From the NCBI RefSeq assembly GCF_023277745.1, contig NZ_CP086322.1, positions 7,750,001-7,814,000 of the forward strand: a stretch of DNA of 64,000 bases, read 5' to 3'. Every line of letters begins with the position of its first letter. The first letter of the stretch is position 1. A model generated the notes under the pieces. The model did no database searches. It was given only the letters and a program-made list of their open reading frames with translations, and had not been told where the DNA came from. A program made the position numbers and the translations under genes. The DNA is from Streptomyces halobius (lineage in GTDB: Bacteria; Actinomycetota; Actinomycetes; Streptomycetales; Streptomycetaceae). Positions 25,640-40,336 of this stretch are shown piece by piece.

Positions 25640-25780
25640 GCTCGGACCCGCCGCCTCGCCACCGAGGTGGGTGCTCCCGGCGAGGATGCCGATGGCCACA
25701 GGAGTGGCCATCGCGATCGTGCCCTCGACGGCGCCCGAGAGGTGCAGTGGGGTCTTCTTCACCGTAAACAGATCTGCCAC
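25640..25780 (-). pseudogene. fragment resembling an FUSC-type membrane protein
   Basis: From GTG 25780 the minus strand reads VADLFTVKKTPLHLSGAVEG then TIAMATPVAIGILAGSTHLG. This resembles the first helix of FUSC/aromatic-acid exporter-like membrane proteins, then loses any recognisable content. It abuts other gene fragments. The assignment is tentative. Confidence 0.35.
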
Positions 25781-25850
25781 GGATGTCGCCGCCACGGGCG
25801 GCCGCGGCCATGTTCAGCGCGGCGACGACCAGTTCGGCACCGTGGCGGGC
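25776..25850 (-). pseudogene. fragment of an IS3-family transposase (integrase core)
   Basis: The minus strand reads ARHGAELVVAALNMAAAARGGDIRG, which looks like the segment before the second catalytic Asp in IS3 OrfB proteins. The catalytic residues and both ends are missing. Confidence 0.45.
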
Positions 25851-25859
25851 GCTGCGACC

Positions 25860-26148
25860 GCCGGCCGCCGCCATCGTGCACCATCAACGGCGTGGCGCTC
25901 GCGGTGTCGTGCAACGTCGCCAGGTACTCCCGCTCACCTGCCCGGCGCGCGGCGGCGACCGACGTCCTCCTGCGCTCCGCGGTCTCCCGCTCGGTCGCGC
26001 GGTCGGCAGCGCGGGTCTTGGCCCGGACGATCAGATACGAAGCCTCGACAGCACCGCCTCGACGAGCCGCCGTCCGGTCAGCAGCAGCGCCGATACCTCG
26101 GAGGACGAGGCGATGGCGTCGCCCGCGAGATACGCAGCGGTCGTCAGC
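25860..26148 (-). pseudogene. fragment of a sensor histidine kinase
   Basis: The minus strand first reads YLAGDAIASSSEVSALLLTG and RRLVEAVLSRLR, a membrane-like stretch that stops. After a frame change it reads RRAGEREYLATLHDTASATP, which matches the dimerisation/phosphoacceptor helix of actinobacterial histidine kinases (His in LHDT). No ATPase domain follows. Both ends and the frame are broken, so it cannot make a working kinase. Confidence 0.6.
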
Positions 26149-26164
26149 GCCGTGCCGGTCCCGC

Positions 26165-26235
26165 CACCGGCCGTCGGGCATCGAGAAGACGACATTCGCG
26201 GCATCGACGATGACCAAGGAATCCGAAGAATCCAC
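26165..26235 (-). pseudogene. 5' end of a small conserved actinobacterial gene, truncated
   Basis: GGAGGTG stands 6 bases before GTG 26235. The encoded start is DSLVIVDAANVVFSMPDGRW, close to a Streptomyces family whose members begin VVDAANVVGSVPDGWWRDR (often annotated as NTP pyrophosphohydrolase; I am not sure of the function). Homology ends at base 26165, where unrelated sequence begins, so only the first 25 or so codons with their ribosome binding site survive. Confidence 0.5.
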
Positions 26236-26288
26236 GGCGTACACCTCCCACGGCCGGGCGGCCCCCGGCGGTCCGTCCGTGGCAGGGC

Positions 26289-27248
26289 TCAGCTCCAGCG
26301 CTTCACCAGCTTGGTCAACGACCGCACCACCTTCCGGATCCGGGTCTCGTCGTCGCGTACCGTCCGGCTGAACTCGACGTGCAGGAACGGCACTTCGGCG
26401 GCCGCCGCGGCCCGGCCCTGCACATTGGTCCGCCCGGCCAGCTCGCAGCGCCGCGCCCAGGCCCGGCAGATCCGCAGCTCCTGCTCCCGCATCGCATCGG
26501 CGAACGACCGGCCGTCGGCCAGCGCGGCCGTGCCCGCCCCGGTCGAGGCGACGACGTCGAAGCCGGGGGCGGACTTGTCGGCGAAGCCGTGTAGCTGGAC
26601 GCCGGGAAGCTTGCGGTCGACGAGGGCGCGCACCACGGTGTGGAAGACGGTGTCCGTCCGGTGTGCGACATCCGCCGCATTGCCCCGGCCCGCCGTGCGG
26701 TGGGCGCCGGCCAGCACCAGGACACCGCCCGGCGCGGCCCGGACGAGCCGGACGGCCGGCATCTCGCTGCGGGCGTCGGCGACGGGGTGCGGAACCTGGA
26801 CCGACCACTTCGGTGCGCTGCTCAGCTCGACGTAGACGCGGCCCCAGCCGCGCGCGGGCTGCGCCCCGGTGCGCTCGGCGATCTCGGCGTACCGGCGGCC
26901 GGAGGGGCGGTCGGTCAGCTCGGTCAGCGCATAGCCGGCGCGGGCCAGTTCGCGACCGGCGTCGCGTCGCCGGCCGTCGAGCAGCAGGGCGGTGCCCTTG
27001 GCCACCGCGGTCCGTTCGCGGTAGCCGGGCGGCCGGTAGTGGCGTCGCTCGTCGAGTCCGGAGGTGAACGCGGTGATGCGGGCTTCCAGGTCGACGGTGG
27101 TGGGATGCGGTGTCGTGTGCGTCGGTGGTGCCGTCTCCGCGGGTGGTGTGCCGCAGGCCGAGGCGAGCAATATCAAGGACGTTACGGACAGTCCGAGCTT
27201 TATGGTGGTTACCGGAGGTAGCAGGGATTTGGTAAAGAAGAGTCTCAT
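26289..27248 (-). CDS. secreted lipoprotein, possible amidohydrolase-like fold
   Basis: 319 aa. The signal peptide ends in the lipobox LLASAC, and a Pro/Thr-rich linker follows. The body contains VQVPHPVADARSEMPAVRLV and VLVLAGAHRTA followed by ADVAHRTDTVFHTVV. This resembles an uncharacterised secreted family with a conserved HP-x2-D-x2-SE pattern that looks like a zinc hydrolase site; that reading is inference. ATG 27248 is only 20 bases from the start of capA on the other strand, so both probably share control. A role in trimming or releasing the polymer made by the pgs genes would fit the context. Confidence 0.75.
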   Translation of the reverse strand: MRLFFTKSLLPPVTTIKLGLSVTSLILLASACGTPPAETAPPTHTTPHPTTVDLEARITAFTSGLDERRHYRPPGYRERTAVAKGTALLLDGRRRDAGRELARAGYALTELTDRPSGRRYAEIAERTGAQPARGWGRVYVELSSAPKWSVQVPHPVADARSEMPAVRLVRAAPGGVLVLAGAHRTAGRGNAADVAHRTDTVFHTVVRALVDRKLPGVQLHGFADKSAPGFDVVASTGAGTAALADGRSFADAMREQELRICRAWARRCELAGRTNVQGRAAAAAEVPFLHVEFSRTVRDDETRIRKVVRSLTKLVKRWS

Positions 27249-27271
27249 ATAGTGATAAGAATAGTGGGGTG
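27249..27271. promoter_or_regulatory. very short divergent promoter between lipoprotein and capA
   Basis: Only 20 bp separate the two starts. On + there is TATAGT at 27249-27254. On - there is TATTCT about 9 bases before the ATG at 27248. The whole 27170-27270 stretch is AT-rich for this genome. Both genes lack a normal ribosome binding site, so leaderless or near-leaderless transcripts with overlapping promoters are likely. Confidence 0.4.
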
Positions 27272-28489
27272 ATGAACCGTTCCACCCGCTTTCGCCCGTT
27301 CCGCCGTGCAGTGCTCGCGCTCACTGTGAGCGCCACCGCCGGCTGTGGGCTTCTCCCCTTGGGCGGAGCGCAGGCGGAGGCGGCGCCGACCGCGTTCACG
27401 CTGGCCGCCGGGGGCGACATCCTCATCCACCCGCAACTCACCGGCCAGGCACGGCGGGACGCGGGCGGCACGGAAGACGGCGACACACCTCCGGACTTCA
27501 CCAGGATTATGGCTGGGGTGGCTCCCGTGCTGCGCCGCGCGGACCTGGCGGTCTGCCACTTCGCACCGGTCGTCGGCGGCCCGAAGGGCCCCTTCCAGAG
27601 CTACCCGGATTTCCTCGTACCACCGCAGATCACCACCGCGATCAAGGGCGCCGGATACGACACCTGCTCGACCGCCTCCCAGCACACCCTCGACCACGGC
27701 CCGGCCGGTGTCCGGCGGACCCTGGACGCCCTGGACAAGGCCGGACTGCGGCACACCGGCTCGGCGCGCAGCCGGGCCGAGGCCCAACGGCCGCTGATCA
27801 TGGACGTCAAGGGCGTCAAGGTCGCCCAGCTCTCCTTCGCCTTCGGCTTCAACGGCCGCGAGGTCCCCGAGGACAAGCCCTGGCTGGTCAACCAAACCTC
27901 CTTCGCCAGGATCGCCGCCGCCGAGCGCGCGGCCCGCAAGGCCGGCGCCGAGGTGGTCGTCCTCAGTATCCACTGGGGCCGCGAGCACCATCCGGAAGCC
28001 TCCGCGCCCCAAGTGGCGTTGGCCCGCCGGATCGCCAAGGAGACCGGTATCGACCTGGTCATCGGCCATCACGCGCATGTCGTCCAGCCGATGGAGAAGG
28101 TCAACGGCACCTGGATCGCGTACGGGCTGGGCAATCAGCTCGCCCGGCACGACGTACCGTCCGGGCTCACCGAGGAAGGCGCCATCGGCTGGTTCGAGTT
28201 CACCCGGCGCGACAGCGGGGGCTGGGATGTGGCGGCGCGCTTCGTTCCCACCCTCGTGGAGATCCCGCCGGACGACCGGGCCCCGGACGAGGCGGAGCCG
28301 GCCCGCGAGCCGGGCGCGCCCAGGGACCACCGGCTGGTCGACGTGGCCGCCGCGCTGCGCGACGACCGGCGGCTGAGCGAGCGGCAACGCGCCCGCTACC
28401 AGGTCGCGTTCGAGCGCACCGAGGGGACACTGCTCAACCGCGGCGCGGCCAAGGACGGTCTGCGGCCGCTCACCGAACTGCCCGGCTGA
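27269..28489 (+). CDS. capA: CapA/PgsA-family poly-gamma-glutamate synthesis protein, lipoprotein
   Basis: 406 aa. The signal peptide ends in the lipobox TAGC, so it is membrane-anchored outside the cell. The CapA metallophosphatase-like fold shows AAGGDILIHPQL (about 46-57), DTCSTASQHTLDHG, VVVLSIHWGREHHPE and VIGHHAHVVQPME. Residue N in the usual GNxH pattern is replaced by SQHTLDHG. CapA is needed with PgsB and PgsC for synthesis and export of poly-gamma-glutamate. It is the first gene of the pgs locus. The start is GTG 27269 or ATG 27272. Confidence 0.9.
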   Translation: MMNRSTRFRPFRRAVLALTVSATAGCGLLPLGGAQAEAAPTAFTLAAGGDILIHPQLTGQARRDAGGTEDGDTPPDFTRIMAGVAPVLRRADLAVCHFAPVVGGPKGPFQSYPDFLVPPQITTAIKGAGYDTCSTASQHTLDHGPAGVRRTLDALDKAGLRHTGSARSRAEAQRPLIMDVKGVKVAQLSFAFGFNGREVPEDKPWLVNQTSFARIAAAERAARKAGAEVVVLSIHWGREHHPEASAPQVALARRIAKETGIDLVIGHHAHVVQPMEKVNGTWIAYGLGNQLARHDVPSGLTEEGAIGWFEFTRRDSGGWDVAARFVPTLVEIPPDDRAPDEAEPAREPGAPRDHRLVDVAAALRDDRRLSERQRARYQVAFERTEGTLLNRGAAKDGLRPLTELPG

Positions 28490-28617
28490 GCGCGCGGCCG
28501 CCCGGCTGACGGAGCCCCACTGCACGGGGCCGCTTCCGCACGCCCCCGTCCGGCCGCTGCCTCCGCCCGTACGCCTTCCCGGCACTCACTCTTCGTTCTC
28601 CCGAAAGGAATCCCCTG

Positions 28618-30963
28618 GTGGTCGCTTCGCGCGCGAGGCGGCGGCAAAAGGCCCGCCGCAGGGCCGATATGTCGCTGCTGGGCGGTATCCGCCCGCCGAT
28701 CGCGGTGCTGTCGGCGCTGCTGCTCGCGCTGGCCGGACTCACCGCCGTCGGACTCGGCGGCTCCCAGGAGAGCGTCCCCAAGGCGGTGTTCACCTCCCAG
28801 CAGCACTTCGCCGAGGACGGCGCCATCGCGCTGCGGGCCTCCCTCGACGAGAGCGTCACCGACTTCCAGCGCGCCGCCGCGCTCGCCTCCGCGGGCCCGC
28901 CGGCCGACGCCGACCACGTCCTGGACACCCTCGGCAACGTCTACGAGAAGTGGCGCGGCACGGCCGTGGTCGACATCGCCTCCGGGAAGCTGCGCGCGGC
29001 CCGCGGCGAATCGCTGCCGCTGGCCGCGATCGACCGTACGAAACTCGCCGATGACGGCGGCCTGGCCCCGCGGATGGTCCGGCTGCGCAACGGCGAGACC
29101 CGGCTGCTTTCGCTCGCCCTGCTCTCCTGGGAGGGCCGACCGCAGCAACTCCTCGTCGGCTCCAGCAGTCTGAAGGTCCCCGGGATCAGCCTGGGCGCGT
29201 TCCGCTCCATCGCGGTGGTCGACACGAAGGGCACGGTCCTCAGCAGCGACGGCATCCCGGAGCCCGAGCAGGTGCTGACCGACCTCCAGCGCAAGGAGGC
29301 CGGCCGGTCCCGGCGCCAGCTGTCGGCGTTCGCCCGCGATGCCGCCGTCAAGGCGGCCCAGCACCCGGCCAAGGCCAAGGAGCTCGGCTCGGGCGGCTTC
29401 CCCGGCGTGAGCGGGAGCCTGACCGGCGAGGCCCATGCGGGGGAGCGGGCGGTCGCCGGCTACGCCACCCTCGCCACCACGGACCCCAAGGAGCACTCCA
29501 CCGCCACGGGCCTCGGGCTGACCGTGGTCGCCATGGTCCCGGTGACCGAGGAGCCCGGTGGTACCGCCGATTCGCTGTTCGGCCTGCTCGCTGCGGCGGC
29601 GCTGCTGTTGATCGGCGCGCTGACCGTGGGGCTGCTGCTGGGCACCGTCCAACGGCCGCTGCTCCAGCTGTTCCTGGAGAGCCGCCGCCTCTCCCGCGGC
29701 GACCTCGCCCGCCCGGTGCGCGTCCCCCGGCACGGCGAAGCGGCCCGGATCGGCCGCGCACTGGAGAGCCTGCGCGGCCAGCTGCTCGGGGAGCGGCCGG
29801 AGCACGCGTCCTTCGCGTCCGGGCCCCCGGACGCGGTGCACCGGCACCGTCCGGCCGCCGGTCCGCGCCGGATCCCGGGCCTTCGCCTACTCGGCAAGAC
29901 GGGTACCCGCGGCCTGCTGGCCGTCTGCGCCTGTCTGCTGCTGGCCTGGTCCGCGCCCCTGGGCTTTCTGCTCAACCGCACCGACGGCACGGTCACCGTC
30001 CCCCAGCAGCTCGTCAACGACCAGCGCGAACGCACCGACACCCTCGCCGACCGGGTGCGCCGCGCACTCAACGAGGGGCACACCGACCTGACGTCGGTGG
30101 CCTCGCTCCTCGGCGCGGACACCACGGCGGGCCAGGCCCAAACCCTCCTGCACCGGACCCTGTACGAGCACCACCGCTACCGGTCGCTGTACGTCGTGGA
30201 CGCCAACGGAGGTGTGCTCAGCCGGGTCGGCGAGGACCCGCGCGCCACTGACGGTGCCGGCCGCGACCGGCAGCTCGCCGTCGTCAACGACCATGGCAAG
30301 GAGCCGGTGATCGTCGGCGCTGCATCGGTGCCCGGCCGCAAGGGCGCCACCGTCGTCGGCGAATTCCGTATCGACTTCCTCAACGCGCTGCTCAAGCGGC
30401 CCGGCCTGGGCCAGATCCGGTTGGTCGACGCCGACCACCGGGTCATCGGCGGCAACACCGGCTACCGGGCGTTCCAGGACCTGCCCGCCGAGCGGCTGGA
30501 CCGCCTGGTGACGGCGGTCAACCTCAAGGCCGGCAGCGCGAAACGGGCCGGCGGCATCCTCTCCCGTACGGGCGAGGGCGCCAAGGTCGCCGCGGCCGCT
30601 CCGTTCACCGGCGGCGGCGTCGCCGAACCGCTCGGCTGGACGGTGGTCAGCTGGCAGTCCGCGACCCATCTGGACACCCCGGAGTCCATCCGCGAGCACC
30701 GCTCCCTGCTGGCCGGTCTGCTCGGGCTGACCGCGGCCGCGGCCTGCCTCGGCTGGCTGCACATCGTCGTCGTACGGCCGCTGCGCGAACTGGCCGGGCA
30801 GGCCGAGACGCTGGCCGCCGGCGACCGCCGCACGGTGCTCTACCCCCGCCACCACGACGAGGTCGGCGCGGTCAGCCGCAGCCTGGAGCTGATCCGGCAG
30901 CGACTGCCGGCCAGGTCCGCGCCCGCCGGCCGGCCCGCCCCGACCAGCGACCCAAGGAACTGA
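28618..30963 (+). CDS. double sensor-like membrane protein (two TM-extracellular-TM-HAMP modules, no output domain)
   Basis: 781 aa. Module 1: TM about 27-48, an extracellular Cache-like domain, TM about 318-342, then HAMP-like RLSRGDLARPVRVPRHGEAA. Module 2: TM about 431-455, a second extracellular domain (YRSLYVVDANGGVLSRVGED, GQIRLVDADHRVIGGNTGY), TM about 698-720, then a HAMP-like helix (RPLRELAGQAETLAAGDRRT, PRHHDEVGAVSRSLELIRQR) that ends the protein. No kinase, cyclase or methyl-accepting domain follows. AAAGGA serves GTG 28618. It lies between capA and pgsB, 6 bases before pgsB, so it may act directly on the synthase. That is inference. Confidence 0.85.
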   Translation: MVASRARRRQKARRRADMSLLGGIRPPIAVLSALLLALAGLTAVGLGGSQESVPKAVFTSQQHFAEDGAIALRASLDESVTDFQRAAALASAGPPADADHVLDTLGNVYEKWRGTAVVDIASGKLRAARGESLPLAAIDRTKLADDGGLAPRMVRLRNGETRLLSLALLSWEGRPQQLLVGSSSLKVPGISLGAFRSIAVVDTKGTVLSSDGIPEPEQVLTDLQRKEAGRSRRQLSAFARDAAVKAAQHPAKAKELGSGGFPGVSGSLTGEAHAGERAVAGYATLATTDPKEHSTATGLGLTVVAMVPVTEEPGGTADSLFGLLAAAALLLIGALTVGLLLGTVQRPLLQLFLESRRLSRGDLARPVRVPRHGEAARIGRALESLRGQLLGERPEHASFASGPPDAVHRHRPAAGPRRIPGLRLLGKTGTRGLLAVCACLLLAWSAPLGFLLNRTDGTVTVPQQLVNDQRERTDTLADRVRRALNEGHTDLTSVASLLGADTTAGQAQTLLHRTLYEHHRYRSLYVVDANGGVLSRVGEDPRATDGAGRDRQLAVVNDHGKEPVIVGAASVPGRKGATVVGEFRIDFLNALLKRPGLGQIRLVDADHRVIGGNTGYRAFQDLPAERLDRLVTAVNLKAGSAKRAGGILSRTGEGAKVAAAAPFTGGGVAEPLGWTVVSWQSATHLDTPESIREHRSLLAGLLGLTAAAACLGWLHIVVVRPLRELAGQAETLAAGDRRTVLYPRHHDEVGAVSRSLELIRQRLPARSAPAGRPAPTSDPRN

Positions 30964-30969
30964 ACGGCC

Positions 30970-32289
30970 GTGCTCTTTCTCTACCTCGTCCTCGTGGTGT
31001 GCTGCGCCGTCCTGCTGGTCGCCGGCGTCATCGAACAGCGCCGGCACTTCGACAACCTCGCCCGCATCCCGACCCGGGTACTGGTCAACGGCATCCGAGG
31101 CAAGAGCTCCATCACCCGGCTGTGCGCCGGCGCACTGCGCGGCGGCGACCTGACCACCGTCGCCAAGACCACCGGCACCGCGGCCCGGTTCATCCACCCG
31201 GACGCCACCGAGGAGCCCGTCTACCGCAAATTCGGCATCGCCAATGTCGTCGAGCAGATCGGCATCGTGCGGCGGGCCGCCGCCTACCGGCCGGACGCCC
31301 TGGTCATCGAGTGCATGGCGGTGATGCCGGCGCTCCAGGAGATCAATCAGAGCAAGCTGATCCGCTCCACCATCGGTGTGCTGTGCAATGTCCGCGAGGA
31401 CCATCTGGAGGAGATGGGACCGACGCTGGACGATGTGGCCCGCTCGCTGTCCCGCTCGATGCCCGAGGGCGGCATCTGCGTGACGGCCGAGCGGGACCGG
31501 TTCGCGATCCTCCAGGAGGAGGCGGACGCCCGTAACTGCCAACTGGTCTACGCCGACCCGGACAGTGTCACCGACGAGGAGCTGCGCGGCTTCAGCTGGT
31601 TCACGTTCAAGGAGAACGTCGCCATCGCGCTGACCGTCGCCGAACTCCTCGGCGTGGACCGGCAGACGGCCCTGAAGGGCATGTACGACGCGCCGCCGGA
31701 CCCGGGAGTGCTGTCGGTGGAGCGGTACCGCACCCCGGACGGCAAGCGGCTGCGGTTCGCCAACGTCTTCGCGGCCAACGACCCCGAGTCCACCACGATG
31801 AACATCGAGCAGCTGCTCCAACTGGGCGCGATCCGGCGGCCGTTGAACCTGGTCATCAACTGCCGCCCGGACCGGGTGGAGCGCAACGGCCAGATGGGCC
31901 AGCTCGTCCCCGGGCTGGCGCCGGAGAAGGCCTTCCTCATCGGCCAGCCCACCAAGAGCGCCCTGGACGCGATCCCCGCCGAGTGGCGGCACCGCGCGGT
32001 GGACCTCGGAGGGGAACGCCGGGAGCCCGGGGAGTTCATGGCCGAGCTCTTCGCCCGGCTCGGCCCCGACTCGTCCCTCGCGGCCATCGGCAACATCCAC
32101 GGCCAGGGCGAGGCGCTCCTGGAGCAGCTCGCCGAACTGCCGCACGACGGCGGGCCGGGGGACGAAACCGGTGGCACCGGGCCCGCGGACCAGCAGGCCG
32201 CCGTCCCTCACCCCACCCCGTACGACCCGCTTGACCCGCTTGACCCGTTCGGCTCGTACGATCCGCACGTCCCAGGAGAACCCCGTTGA
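30970..32289 (+). CDS. pgsB: poly-gamma-glutamate synthase subunit PgsB (CapB)
   Basis: A 439-aa ligase of the Mur-ligase-like superfamily that polymerises glutamate through gamma-amide bonds using ATP. One N-terminal membrane helix (LFLYLVLVVCCAVLLVAGVI) is followed by the P-loop VNGIRGKSSITR (G41-S47), KTTGTAARFIHPDA, VIECMAVMPALQEINQSKLI and VCNVREDH-like GVLCNVREDHLEEMGP. The last 45 residues are an acidic Pro/Asp tail with a DPLDPLDPF repeat. GTG start, 6 bases after the sensor-like gene. The stop overlaps the pgsC start. Confidence 0.93.
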   Translation: MLFLYLVLVVCCAVLLVAGVIEQRRHFDNLARIPTRVLVNGIRGKSSITRLCAGALRGGDLTTVAKTTGTAARFIHPDATEEPVYRKFGIANVVEQIGIVRRAAAYRPDALVIECMAVMPALQEINQSKLIRSTIGVLCNVREDHLEEMGPTLDDVARSLSRSMPEGGICVTAERDRFAILQEEADARNCQLVYADPDSVTDEELRGFSWFTFKENVAIALTVAELLGVDRQTALKGMYDAPPDPGVLSVERYRTPDGKRLRFANVFAANDPESTTMNIEQLLQLGAIRRPLNLVINCRPDRVERNGQMGQLVPGLAPEKAFLIGQPTKSALDAIPAEWRHRAVDLGGERREPGEFMAELFARLGPDSSLAAIGNIHGQGEALLEQLAELPHDGGPGDETGGTGPADQQAAVPHPTPYDPLDPLDPFGSYDPHVPGEPR

Positions 32290-32768
32290 TCCCCGCCGTC
32301 CTGACCCCCGAGATCGCCGCCATCGGTATCGCCCTGGGGCTGCTGTTCTCGCTGGTCTGCTACCTGACGACCAACCTGTCCCCGGGCGGCATGATCACCC
32401 CGGGCTGGCTGGCGCTGACCCTGGTCGAGGACCTCCAGCTGGTGTCCATGGTCGTCGGCGTCACCGTTCTGACGTATCTGGCGACCCTGCTGGTCCAGCG
32501 CCATGTGATCCTCTACGGCAAGCGGCTGTTCGCCGCCGTCGTGCTGCTCGGTGTGTTCCTGCAGGCGACCCTGCTGTTCATCCTCCAGCGCGAGTTCCCG
32601 CTGATGTACTCCAACCAGACCCTGGGCTTCATCGTCCCCGGTCTGATCGCCTACCAGCTGGCCCGTCAGCCCAAGGGCGCCACCCTCCTCGCCACCGGCT
32701 CGGTCACCCTCGTCAACTACGTGGTGATCACCGCCGGCATCCTGCTCGGCGCGCTGCCGTCCACCTGA
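32286..32768 (+). CDS. pgsC: poly-gamma-glutamate synthase membrane subunit PgsC (CapC)
   Basis: 160 aa, about five membrane helices, with the conserved PgsC layout: EIAAIGIALGLLFSLVCYLT, SPGGMITPGWLAL, ILYGKRLFAAVVLLGVFLQ and TLGFIVPGLIAYQLARQPKG. It forms the membrane part of the PgsBCA synthase. The TTG start overlaps the pgsB stop by 4 bases (TTGA), so the two subunits are made together. Confidence 0.92.
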   Translation: MIPAVLTPEIAAIGIALGLLFSLVCYLTTNLSPGGMITPGWLALTLVEDLQLVSMVVGVTVLTYLATLLVQRHVILYGKRLFAAVVLLGVFLQATLLFILQREFPLMYSNQTLGFIVPGLIAYQLARQPKGATLLATGSVTLVNYVVITAGILLGALPST

Positions 32769-32792
32769 TCCCGAGAACGGAGCCGACCCCGC

Positions 32793-33878
32793 ATGACCAC
32801 CACCGACAAGCGCCGCCGGAACCGCGTACTGCACGCCGCCACGGTGATCGCCCTGCTGGCCGGCAGCGCCGTGCTCACCGTCGCCCTGCGCGAGGAACAG
32901 CAGGCCAATACCCCCACCGTCCAGGCTGTCACCGAACCCGGCGCGGCCCCGGCCGACGCCAAGGGCTCGGGCACCCAGGGCGAGCGCTGGGAGCGGCTGA
33001 GCAATCCCGCCCGCACGGTGCTGCGCGACGGCGCCGGCAAGGTGCTCGCCACCTTCACCGACGGCGCCCGTACGGCCACCCTGACCGGGCCCAGCCGCAG
33101 CTTCACCGAGCCCGCGCACACCGCGTCCCGGATCGTCACCGAGGACTGGGTGCGGCTGATGCCGGAGAAATGGCGGGTCGGCGCCGAGACCGAGCCCTGG
33201 TTCACCAAGTGGTTCAAGGAGATGCGCGACAGCACCGCGGACGACGTCTTCGCCATCGCCTTCCAATACGTCGAGGGAGCGCCGGTGAAGAAGGACGCCG
33301 CCGGTGTCGCGTACGCGGGCGACGCCAACTTCGGGCCGATCAACCCCAACGGCCGCGTCGGCGCCGATCTCCGGCTGGAACAGTCCGACTTCTACGACTA
33401 CCTCGGTATCCCGTACACCTTCCGCGACGGCACCCACGTCACCCCCGAAGCCGCCCGGGCTCGTTCCATGGACTGCTCCGGGTTCATTCGTACGGTCTTC
33501 GGCTACCGGGCCCGCTTCCCCCTGATGTCGTCCGACACGACCGGCGACGGGCTGCCGCGTACCGCCAACGGCATGGCCCGTTCGAAGACCGGCGTGGACA
33601 TCATCAAGCTCAAGGGTGCCGCACCGCGCTACGAACGGCCGGCCTCCATCGACCAGTTGCAACCCGGGGACCTGGTTTTCTTCTGGCTCGACGCCCGGAC
33701 CAAGGACCGCCTCGACCATGTCGGCATCTACCTGGGCCAGGACACCGACGGCCACCGGATCTTCATCTCCAGCCGGGAAGAGGTCAACGGACCCACCATC
33801 GGCGACAAGGGCGGCGTTTCCCGCCTCGACGGCAACGGCTTCTACGCCGAACTGCTGCGCAGCGCCAAGCGCCTGTAA
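32793..33878 (+). CDS. exported NlpC/P60-family hydrolase of the pgs locus
   Basis: 361 aa. An N-terminal signal anchor (VIALLAGSAVLTVAL) is followed by a linker and a region about 63-215 without a known domain. The NlpC/P60 domain carries the catalytic Cys in RSMDCSGFIRTVFGYR (C228), PGDLVFFWLD and the catalytic His in LDHVGIYLG (H309). These enzymes cut gamma-D-glutamyl bonds in peptidoglycan; relatives (PgdS, CwlT types) cut poly-gamma-glutamate. Its place 24 bases after pgsC suggests it opens the wall for export or trims the polymer. Confidence 0.9.
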   Translation: MTTTDKRRRNRVLHAATVIALLAGSAVLTVALREEQQANTPTVQAVTEPGAAPADAKGSGTQGERWERLSNPARTVLRDGAGKVLATFTDGARTATLTGPSRSFTEPAHTASRIVTEDWVRLMPEKWRVGAETEPWFTKWFKEMRDSTADDVFAIAFQYVEGAPVKKDAAGVAYAGDANFGPINPNGRVGADLRLEQSDFYDYLGIPYTFRDGTHVTPEAARARSMDCSGFIRTVFGYRARFPLMSSDTTGDGLPRTANGMARSKTGVDIIKLKGAAPRYERPASIDQLQPGDLVFFWLDARTKDRLDHVGIYLGQDTDGHRIFISSREEVNGPTIGDKGGVSRLDGNGFYAELLRSAKRL

Positions 33879-35088: not shown

Positions 35089-35955
35089 CTCACGTGGCGA
35101 GTCTGGCGAGTTTCTTGTAGCAGGTCAGGGTGGCTGCGAGGCCGAGGAAGGCGAGGAAGTGGGAGCCCTTCCGCTCGTACCGGACTGTGCGGCGGCGGCA
35201 GCCGATCGGCCAGGCTGTGGACCGCTCGATCTTCCAGCGGTGGCGGCCGAGCCGTTCGCTCGATTCGACCCCTGGGCGTGCGATGCGCGGGACAAGCCCG
35301 CGTTCGCGCAGCCGGGCGAGGTGCTCAGCGGAGGAGTGCGCCGTGTCCGCCCGGAGCTTGACCGGGCGGCGGCGTCGCGGTGCTCGGCGGGAGCGGACGG
35401 CGGGGATCGAGCGGATCAGCGGCTTCAGGGCCAGGATGTCGTTCGTCTTCGCGGCCGACACCGCGACGACCAGGGGAATGCCCGGGCCTCGGACGACACA
35501 TGCAGCATGCTGCCCTTCTTGTCGCGGTCGACCGGGTTCGGCCCGGTCAGCGAGCCCCTTTTTCCGCCCGGACCGAGGCGGCGTCAACGATCGCCGAGGT
35601 CCAGTCCAGCTCGCCCCGGGCGCCGAGTTCGTCCAGGACCGCGCGGTGCAGCCGGTGCCACAGCCCTGCCCTTGTCCATACGGTGAACCGGCGGTGCGCG
35701 GTGGCGGGCGACACCCCGAACGTCTCCGGCAGATGCCGCCACGCGCACCCGCTGGTCAACACGTACACCACCGCCGTGAACACGGCCCGCTCATCGCACG
35801 GAGCGGTCCCACCGCCCTGGGGGCGGGGACGTGAACGGCGGCAACAACGGGGCGACCAGCTCCCACAGACCATCAGGAACCAGTCGCTGCGACAGATCAA
35901 CACCCACAAGGAGCAAGATGCCGCAGCTCACACCATCACCACATGAGACATCCCC
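35085..35955 (-). mobile_element. decayed IS5-family (IS427-like) insertion sequence
   Basis: Ends carry imperfect inverted repeats: GGTGTCTCACGTGG at the left and GGATGTCTCATGTGG (minus strand) at the right. About 870 bp long, with a single transposase gene on the minus strand that is broken by frameshifts. The left end abuts a receiver-domain fragment. The right end abuts the 3' end of a protein-kinase gene and supplies part of its stop codon. Exact borders are plus or minus a few bases. Confidence 0.8.
35090..35907 (-). pseudogene. IS5-family transposase, multiple frameshifts
   Basis: Pieces in order: VGVDLSQRLVPDGLWELVAP, then FTAVVYVLTSGCAWRHLPET and LDWTSAIVDAASVRAEKG (DDE Asp), a third-frame stretch GSLTGPNPVDRDKKGSMLH, and GIPLVVAVSAAKTND to RIARPGVESSERLGRHRWKI. 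Frame changes lie near 35825, 35550 (at GGAAAAAGGGG, a site that may be a programmed slip) and 35480. At least two are not programmable, so the protein is dead. Confidence 0.8.
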
Positions 35956-39865: not shown

Positions 39866-39873
39866 CTGGTGTG

Positions 39874-39945
39874 TGGACGATACTGGGATTGAACCAGTGA
39901 CCTCTTCCGTGTCAGGGAAGCGCTCTCCCGCTGAGCTAATCGTCC
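39874..39945 (-). tRNA. tRNA-Val (anticodon GAC), copy 3 of the cluster
   Basis: Acceptor GGACGAT/ATCGTCC; anticodon arm CTTCC-CTGACAC-GGAAG gives GAC; T-arm GGTTCAATCCC. Last gene of a five-tRNA minus-strand operon. Confidence 0.95.
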
Positions 39946-39984
39946 TCGGGACCACGGATCACAACGATCTCCGTGGGTGCGGCG

Positions 39985-40056
39985 TGCGCGATACTGGGAT
40001 TGAACCAGTGACCTCTTCCGTGTCAGGGAAGCGCTCTCCCGCTGAGCTAATCGCGC
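39985..40056 (-). tRNA. tRNA-Val (anticodon GAC), copy 2, different acceptor stem
   Basis: The body is identical to the neighbouring copies, but the acceptor stem is GCGCGAT/ATCGCGC instead of GGACGAT/ATCGTCC. The changes are compensated on both strands, so the stem still pairs. Confidence 0.95.
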
Positions 40057-40081
40057 GGGAGCCCGGAGCGGACCGGGCCGG

Positions 40082-40153
40082 TGGACGATACTGGGATTGA
40101 ACCAGTGACCTCTTCCGTGTCAGGGAAGCGCTCTCCCGCTGAGCTAATCGTCC
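40082..40153 (-). tRNA. tRNA-Val (anticodon GAC), copy 1
   Basis: Same sequence as the copy at 39874-39945. It lies a few bases downstream of tRNA-Cys in the operon. Confidence 0.95.
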
Positions 40154-40154
40154 T

Positions 40155-40228
40155 TGGAGGTGGAGACGGGATTTGAACCCGTGTAGACGGCTTTGCAGGC
40201 CGTTGCCTCGCCTCTCGGCCACTCCACC
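40155..40228 (-). tRNA. tRNA-Cys (anticodon GCA)
   Basis: Acceptor GGTGGAG/CTCCACC, anticodon arm ACGGC-CTGCAAA-GCCGT gives GCA, T-arm GGGTTCAAATCCC. CCA appears encoded (40155-40157), unlike in the Val copies. Confidence 0.95.
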
Positions 40229-40263
40229 AGGAGTGCAGGGGTTCGGGAAGATCCCCCACATCG

Positions 40264-40336
<73 letters not shown>

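Follow-up and report, generated by a model that had tools for sequence, protein, structure and literature searches.

A 64,000-nucleotide stretch of Streptomyces halobius DNA (the window; bases 7750001-7814000 of NZ_CP086322.1, a 9.24-Mb single-contig genome) carries, at positions 26289-33878, a gene set that is probably best explained as an actinobacterial synthase of the poly-gamma-glutamate (PGA) type, equipped with a receptor of its own and a pair of hydrolases. A preliminary description had listed capA, pgsB, pgsC, an exported NlpC/P60 hydrolase gene and a divergent lipoprotein gene. Coordinates and family scores confirm the first four within this interval, and the description was right about the kind of locus as well as about the genes that it names. 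It left out the largest gene of the set, encoding a Cache/HAMP protein of 781 amino acids (aa). The two most informative parts of the locus had both been overlooked: this receptor-like partner, encoded next to pgsB, and the hydrolase fold predicted for the divergently encoded ‘lipoprotein’.

The synthase core and its receptor-like partner

The ligase-type protein PgsB (30970..32289, + strand) scores 381 bits against the equivalog model TIGR04012, above the cut-off of 222.7. Relatives found within the genus are 80% identical to it, and a search of PDB with the PgsB sequence alone gave no match. An alignment of PgsB and 24 relatives, the most distant of them 42% identical, has 104 invariant positions, including NGIRGKS, KTTG, ECMAV, NVRxDH, AAND and a DR pair, which we take to be the active-site motifs of Mur ligases. 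An inactive PgsB, named beforehand as a possible argument against polymer synthesis, was not encountered: the ligase motifs are intact across all 25 sequences and, as far as its sequence tells, PgsB looks active. PgsC (32286..32768, + strand, TTG start) belongs to the CapC family of membrane partners (PF14102, 118.8 bits, cut-off 27). Its gene overlaps pgsB by four bases (32286-32289). The preliminary description spoke of overlapping starts for capA, pgsB and pgsC, which holds for this pair only, as gaps of 128, 6 and 24 bp separate capA from the Cache/HAMP gene, the latter from pgsB, and pgsC from the NlpC/P60 gene, respectively.

The Cache/HAMP protein (28618..30963, + strand; the start may be 28669) is built from two Cache-like sensor modules, with a HAMP domain after each. 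The HAMP match reaches 49.9 bits over two stretches, above the cut-off, and the Cache assignment rests on the fold, since the predicted model matches the dCache folds of chemoreceptors. No output domain (kinase, cyclase or chemotaxis) was found in this protein; the chain ends soon past the second HAMP domain, with no further Pfam match.

The linkage of this gene to pgsB is nearly universal. Among Streptomyces genomes we collected 59 pgsB loci in 55 genomes (three hits below 500 bp were dropped and one locus is a 618-bp partial), and all 59 carry a Cache/HAMP gene immediately before pgsB on the same strand, the interval being -7 to 118 bp. At sites away from pgsB, the Cache/HAMP search gave three short matches, one of them in a genome that lacks pgsB. 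The best 80 of 397 pgsB relatives from a scan of named genomes served as named actinobacterial loci; counts in these loci, such as those for CapA and NlpC below, are lower bounds because some loci are truncated where their contig stops and because near relatives supplied the profiles for CapA and NlpC. A profile search placed the Cache/HAMP gene directly upstream of pgsB in at least 79 of the 80, reaching as far as Rubrobacter.

The partner occurs in three forms, with one module, two split modules or two fused modules. In a PgsB tree of 41 rows, Lentzea, Rubrobacter, Jiangellales, locus L116 and a receptor-less Nonomuraea row share one side (branch support 100/99). The partner in L116 is a single module broken into two frames; for the other rows, reading-frame length was the only criterion, with ‘fused’ as the default label for those remaining. 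The position of the root is uncertain, given a very long outgroup branch. A sensor-like receptor that stands beside a synthase gene and has no output of its own points to possible direct switching of the polymer machinery by an outside signal.

Exported proteins of the locus

The divergent gene (26289..27248, - strand) encodes an exported, probably membrane-held protein that has no match in Pfam or NCBIfam; PF05908 in particular matches neither this protein nor 80 members of its family. Its predicted fold is that of the gamma-PGA hydrolases of PF05908, with PGA hydrolases and N-formylglutamate amidohydrolase tied as first matches, which makes it a candidate zinc hydrolase. An H, D, H, E and R are invariant in an order similar to that known for PghL. 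H154, D158, H220 and E292 are conserved in 84 of 84 family sequences, their likeness to the zinc ligands H, E, H and the catalytic E being one of order only. A smaller profile of the family gave a non-significant hhalign E-value of 0.12 against PF05908, and this weak alignment pairs H220, E292 and R298 with the invariant H, E and R of five PF05908 proteins. The link to zinc enzymes is drawn from the predicted fold and the invariant residues, since the profile comparisons are not significant. Two candidates were discarded along the way: H183 as the counterpart of PghL His77, a residue that varies among distant family members, and a designed-looking repeat ‘lysozyme’ PDB entry, the best profile match (E 0.041), which aligned outside the active site and was unconvincing.

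The description of this protein as a lipoprotein is plausible for the copy in the window (LLASAC). Across the family, a loose lipobox was seen in only 15 of 80 members (an undercount, because strings such as LTQC escape the pattern); several others look membrane-anchored by eye. The gene lies divergently near pgsB in 45 of the 59 Streptomyces loci and was found by profile search in at least 53 of the 80 named loci. One of these, from a Rubrobacter metagenome-assembled genome (L077, 6003-8027), has two adjacent genes of the family, one after pgsC and one on the opposite strand.

The exported NlpC/P60 protein (32793..33878, + strand; PF00877, 39.1 bits, cut-off 23) closes the set. Its C228 and H309 are invariant in 20 of 20 aligned sequences, and profile searches recovered nlpC in at least 74 and pgsC in all 80 named loci. 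CapA (27272..28489, + strand) has a signal sequence and belongs to the PGA_cap family (PF09587, 218.5 bits, cut-off 27), so that CapA/PgsA is present in the locus itself; each of 12 genomes checked has a CapA relative somewhere. The same protein also weakly matches the model of the lasso-peptide epimerase MslH (36.9 bits, cut-off 700).

Distribution and genomic setting

Relatives of pgsB are present in 55 of 199 Streptomyces genomes. Across the class the figure is 15 of 394 genomes, including one doubtful match of 63 residues. The S. halobius genome itself has a second pgs locus at 8.71 Mb (L031), comprising a divergent PAF-acetylhydrolase-like gene, a Cache/HAMP gene, pgsB, pgsC and a gene for a YkcB-like glycosyltransferase, the last of which also stands in the distant locus L070; no match for capA, the zinc enzyme or nlpC was found at 8.71 Mb. 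Given the frequency in the genus and this second copy, the earlier view that such a set is uncommon in Streptomyces is not right.

The proposal that the set lies on an island fared better. Measured from middle to middle, a SpoU-methyltransferase match and a pabB-like match stand 15.9 kb apart in this genome; the median distance in 50 other genomes is 6.1 kb (61 genomes were searched, ten of which lacked a marker or had the two on different contigs and were excluded). The surplus of about 9.9 kb is compatible with the combined length of the pgs set and its near flanks; therefore, the locus seems to sit in an insertion of roughly 10 kb. One genome (G055) has a longer interval of 17.6 kb and carries its pgsB elsewhere. 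Compared by eye, none of the 14 other pgsB-bearing genomes among the 51 measured has pgsB between these markers. No genomic site common to the loci emerged: ten flank genes of the window matched none of 24 loci at E 1e-10, these loci being 15-19 kb long and covering near flanks only.

Three further features surround the inserted stretch. To the left of the zinc-enzyme gene, the sequence at about 25780-26240 (- strand) looks, by eye, like the fragmented relic of a protein resembling the one at 6055-6441 of L046 (VDAANVV occurs in both). Near the right side of the inserted stretch, a short frame at 35090-35461 (- strand) resembles, by eye, the end of an insertion sequence (IS)-type transposase. 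A few kb past the insertion lie five transfer RNA (tRNA) genes (39873-40336, - strand; three Val, Cys and Gly), and tRNA genes are frequent integration sites.

Alternative readings and comparison with known systems

In the explanation that we favor, PgsB, as an ATP-dependent ligase, and its membrane partner PgsC would polymerize glutamate, or a closely similar compound, through gamma linkages at the membrane, assisted on the outside by CapA. The twin Cache/HAMP protein would be a constant companion of the synthase that detects a small molecule on the outside and, via its HAMP domains, relays the change to PgsB/PgsC, not to a kinase. The polymer would then be trimmed or recycled outside by the NlpC/P60 protein and the putative zinc enzyme of PghP/N-formylglutamate-amidohydrolase fold. 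A bolder version, which we put forward only tentatively and hold to be somewhat less probable than its negation, is a ligand-gated synthase: the kinase-less receptor would act directly on PgsB/PgsC, an outside small molecule would switch synthesis at the protein level, and this actinobacterial branch would be defined by the receptor, in place of CapA, as its third subunit. The ligand might be an amino acid or a degradation product set free by the two hydrolases.

Several observations weigh against the favored explanation. The dCache_1 match of the receptor-like protein (26.1 bits) lies below the Pfam cut-off of 45, and no Cache/HAMP match was found at locus L095 or with the 42%-identical PgsB of L070. 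For the zinc-enzyme candidate, the top ten Foldseek rows, 9oqa excluded, have low template-modelling (TM) scores of 0.36-0.42 (normalized by query length), and hhalign with a larger profile of the family gave E 0.06 against PF05908 and 0.41 against PF05013, where an unrelated CapA control reached 0.096. CapA is absent from most of the loci examined (found in at least 25 of 80). This last figure also bears on what the Cache/HAMP protein does, as its gene is the more constant neighbor of pgsB (79 versus 25 of 80); together with a predicted membrane-bound architecture that has no output domain, it would fit a structural platform for export or assembly that partly replaces PgsA/CapA and senses nothing, a role that we regard as rather unlikely. 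It is similarly doubtful that both outside hydrolases act in peptidoglycan turnover instead of polymer release. PgsC reaches only 76.5 bits against its own equivalog model TIGR04011 (cut-off 96.45), as might be expected if the product were a different chain of amino acids in gamma or beta linkage, or if glutamate formed a tail on some other surface molecule; on this account the second locus, given its glycosyltransferase, an enzyme that it shares with L070, may decorate a glycan. The score of PgsB far above the cut-off of the PGA equivalog speaks against such a product, which we consider improbable.

PGA synthases are known mainly from Bacillus. If the favored explanation is true, a sizeable share of Streptomyces (the 55 of 199 sampled) could make an anionic peptide polymer, and a candidate zinc-enzyme family without a Pfam model would join the enzymes that may cut gamma-PGA. 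A sensor tied to the synthase gene would allow kinase-free receptor control to be tested directly, and such a branch would help to explain a synthase that stands without a local CapA. Titles and opening parts of abstracts of open-licence papers, among the matches listed, describe no Cache/HAMP pgs locus, none of this kind in an actinomycete and no study of such a polymer from Streptomyces, which is not proof of absence. Passages on Frankia name a PGA biosynthesis protein and mention no Cache/HAMP pgs locus (PMC2266912).

In passages on Bacillus, transcriptional control of the PGA synthase is described and pgsBCA is followed immediately by a gene for PGA release (PMC8909396). The locus resembles this pgsBCA(E) organization, as far as those passages describe it, in its PgsB ligase, PgsC/CapC, CapA and downstream hydrolase gene (PMC8909396). 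It differs by the twin Cache/HAMP gene directly before pgsB, by the divergent zinc-enzyme candidate and by a capA that comes first in gene order; actinobacterial loci often have no local CapA. Compared with PghP/PghL (3a9l, 5onj, 21dc; PF05908), the candidate has no PF05908 match and no significant profile similarity, carries H-x3-D where those enzymes have H-x4-E, and has an extra N-terminal part; unlike N-formylglutamate amidohydrolase (2q7s; PF05013), it has no PF05013 match, is exported and is encoded beside pgs genes. The Cache/HAMP protein, finally, is distinct from dCache chemoreceptors such as CtaA and PctA in having two tandem modules and no signalling output domain.
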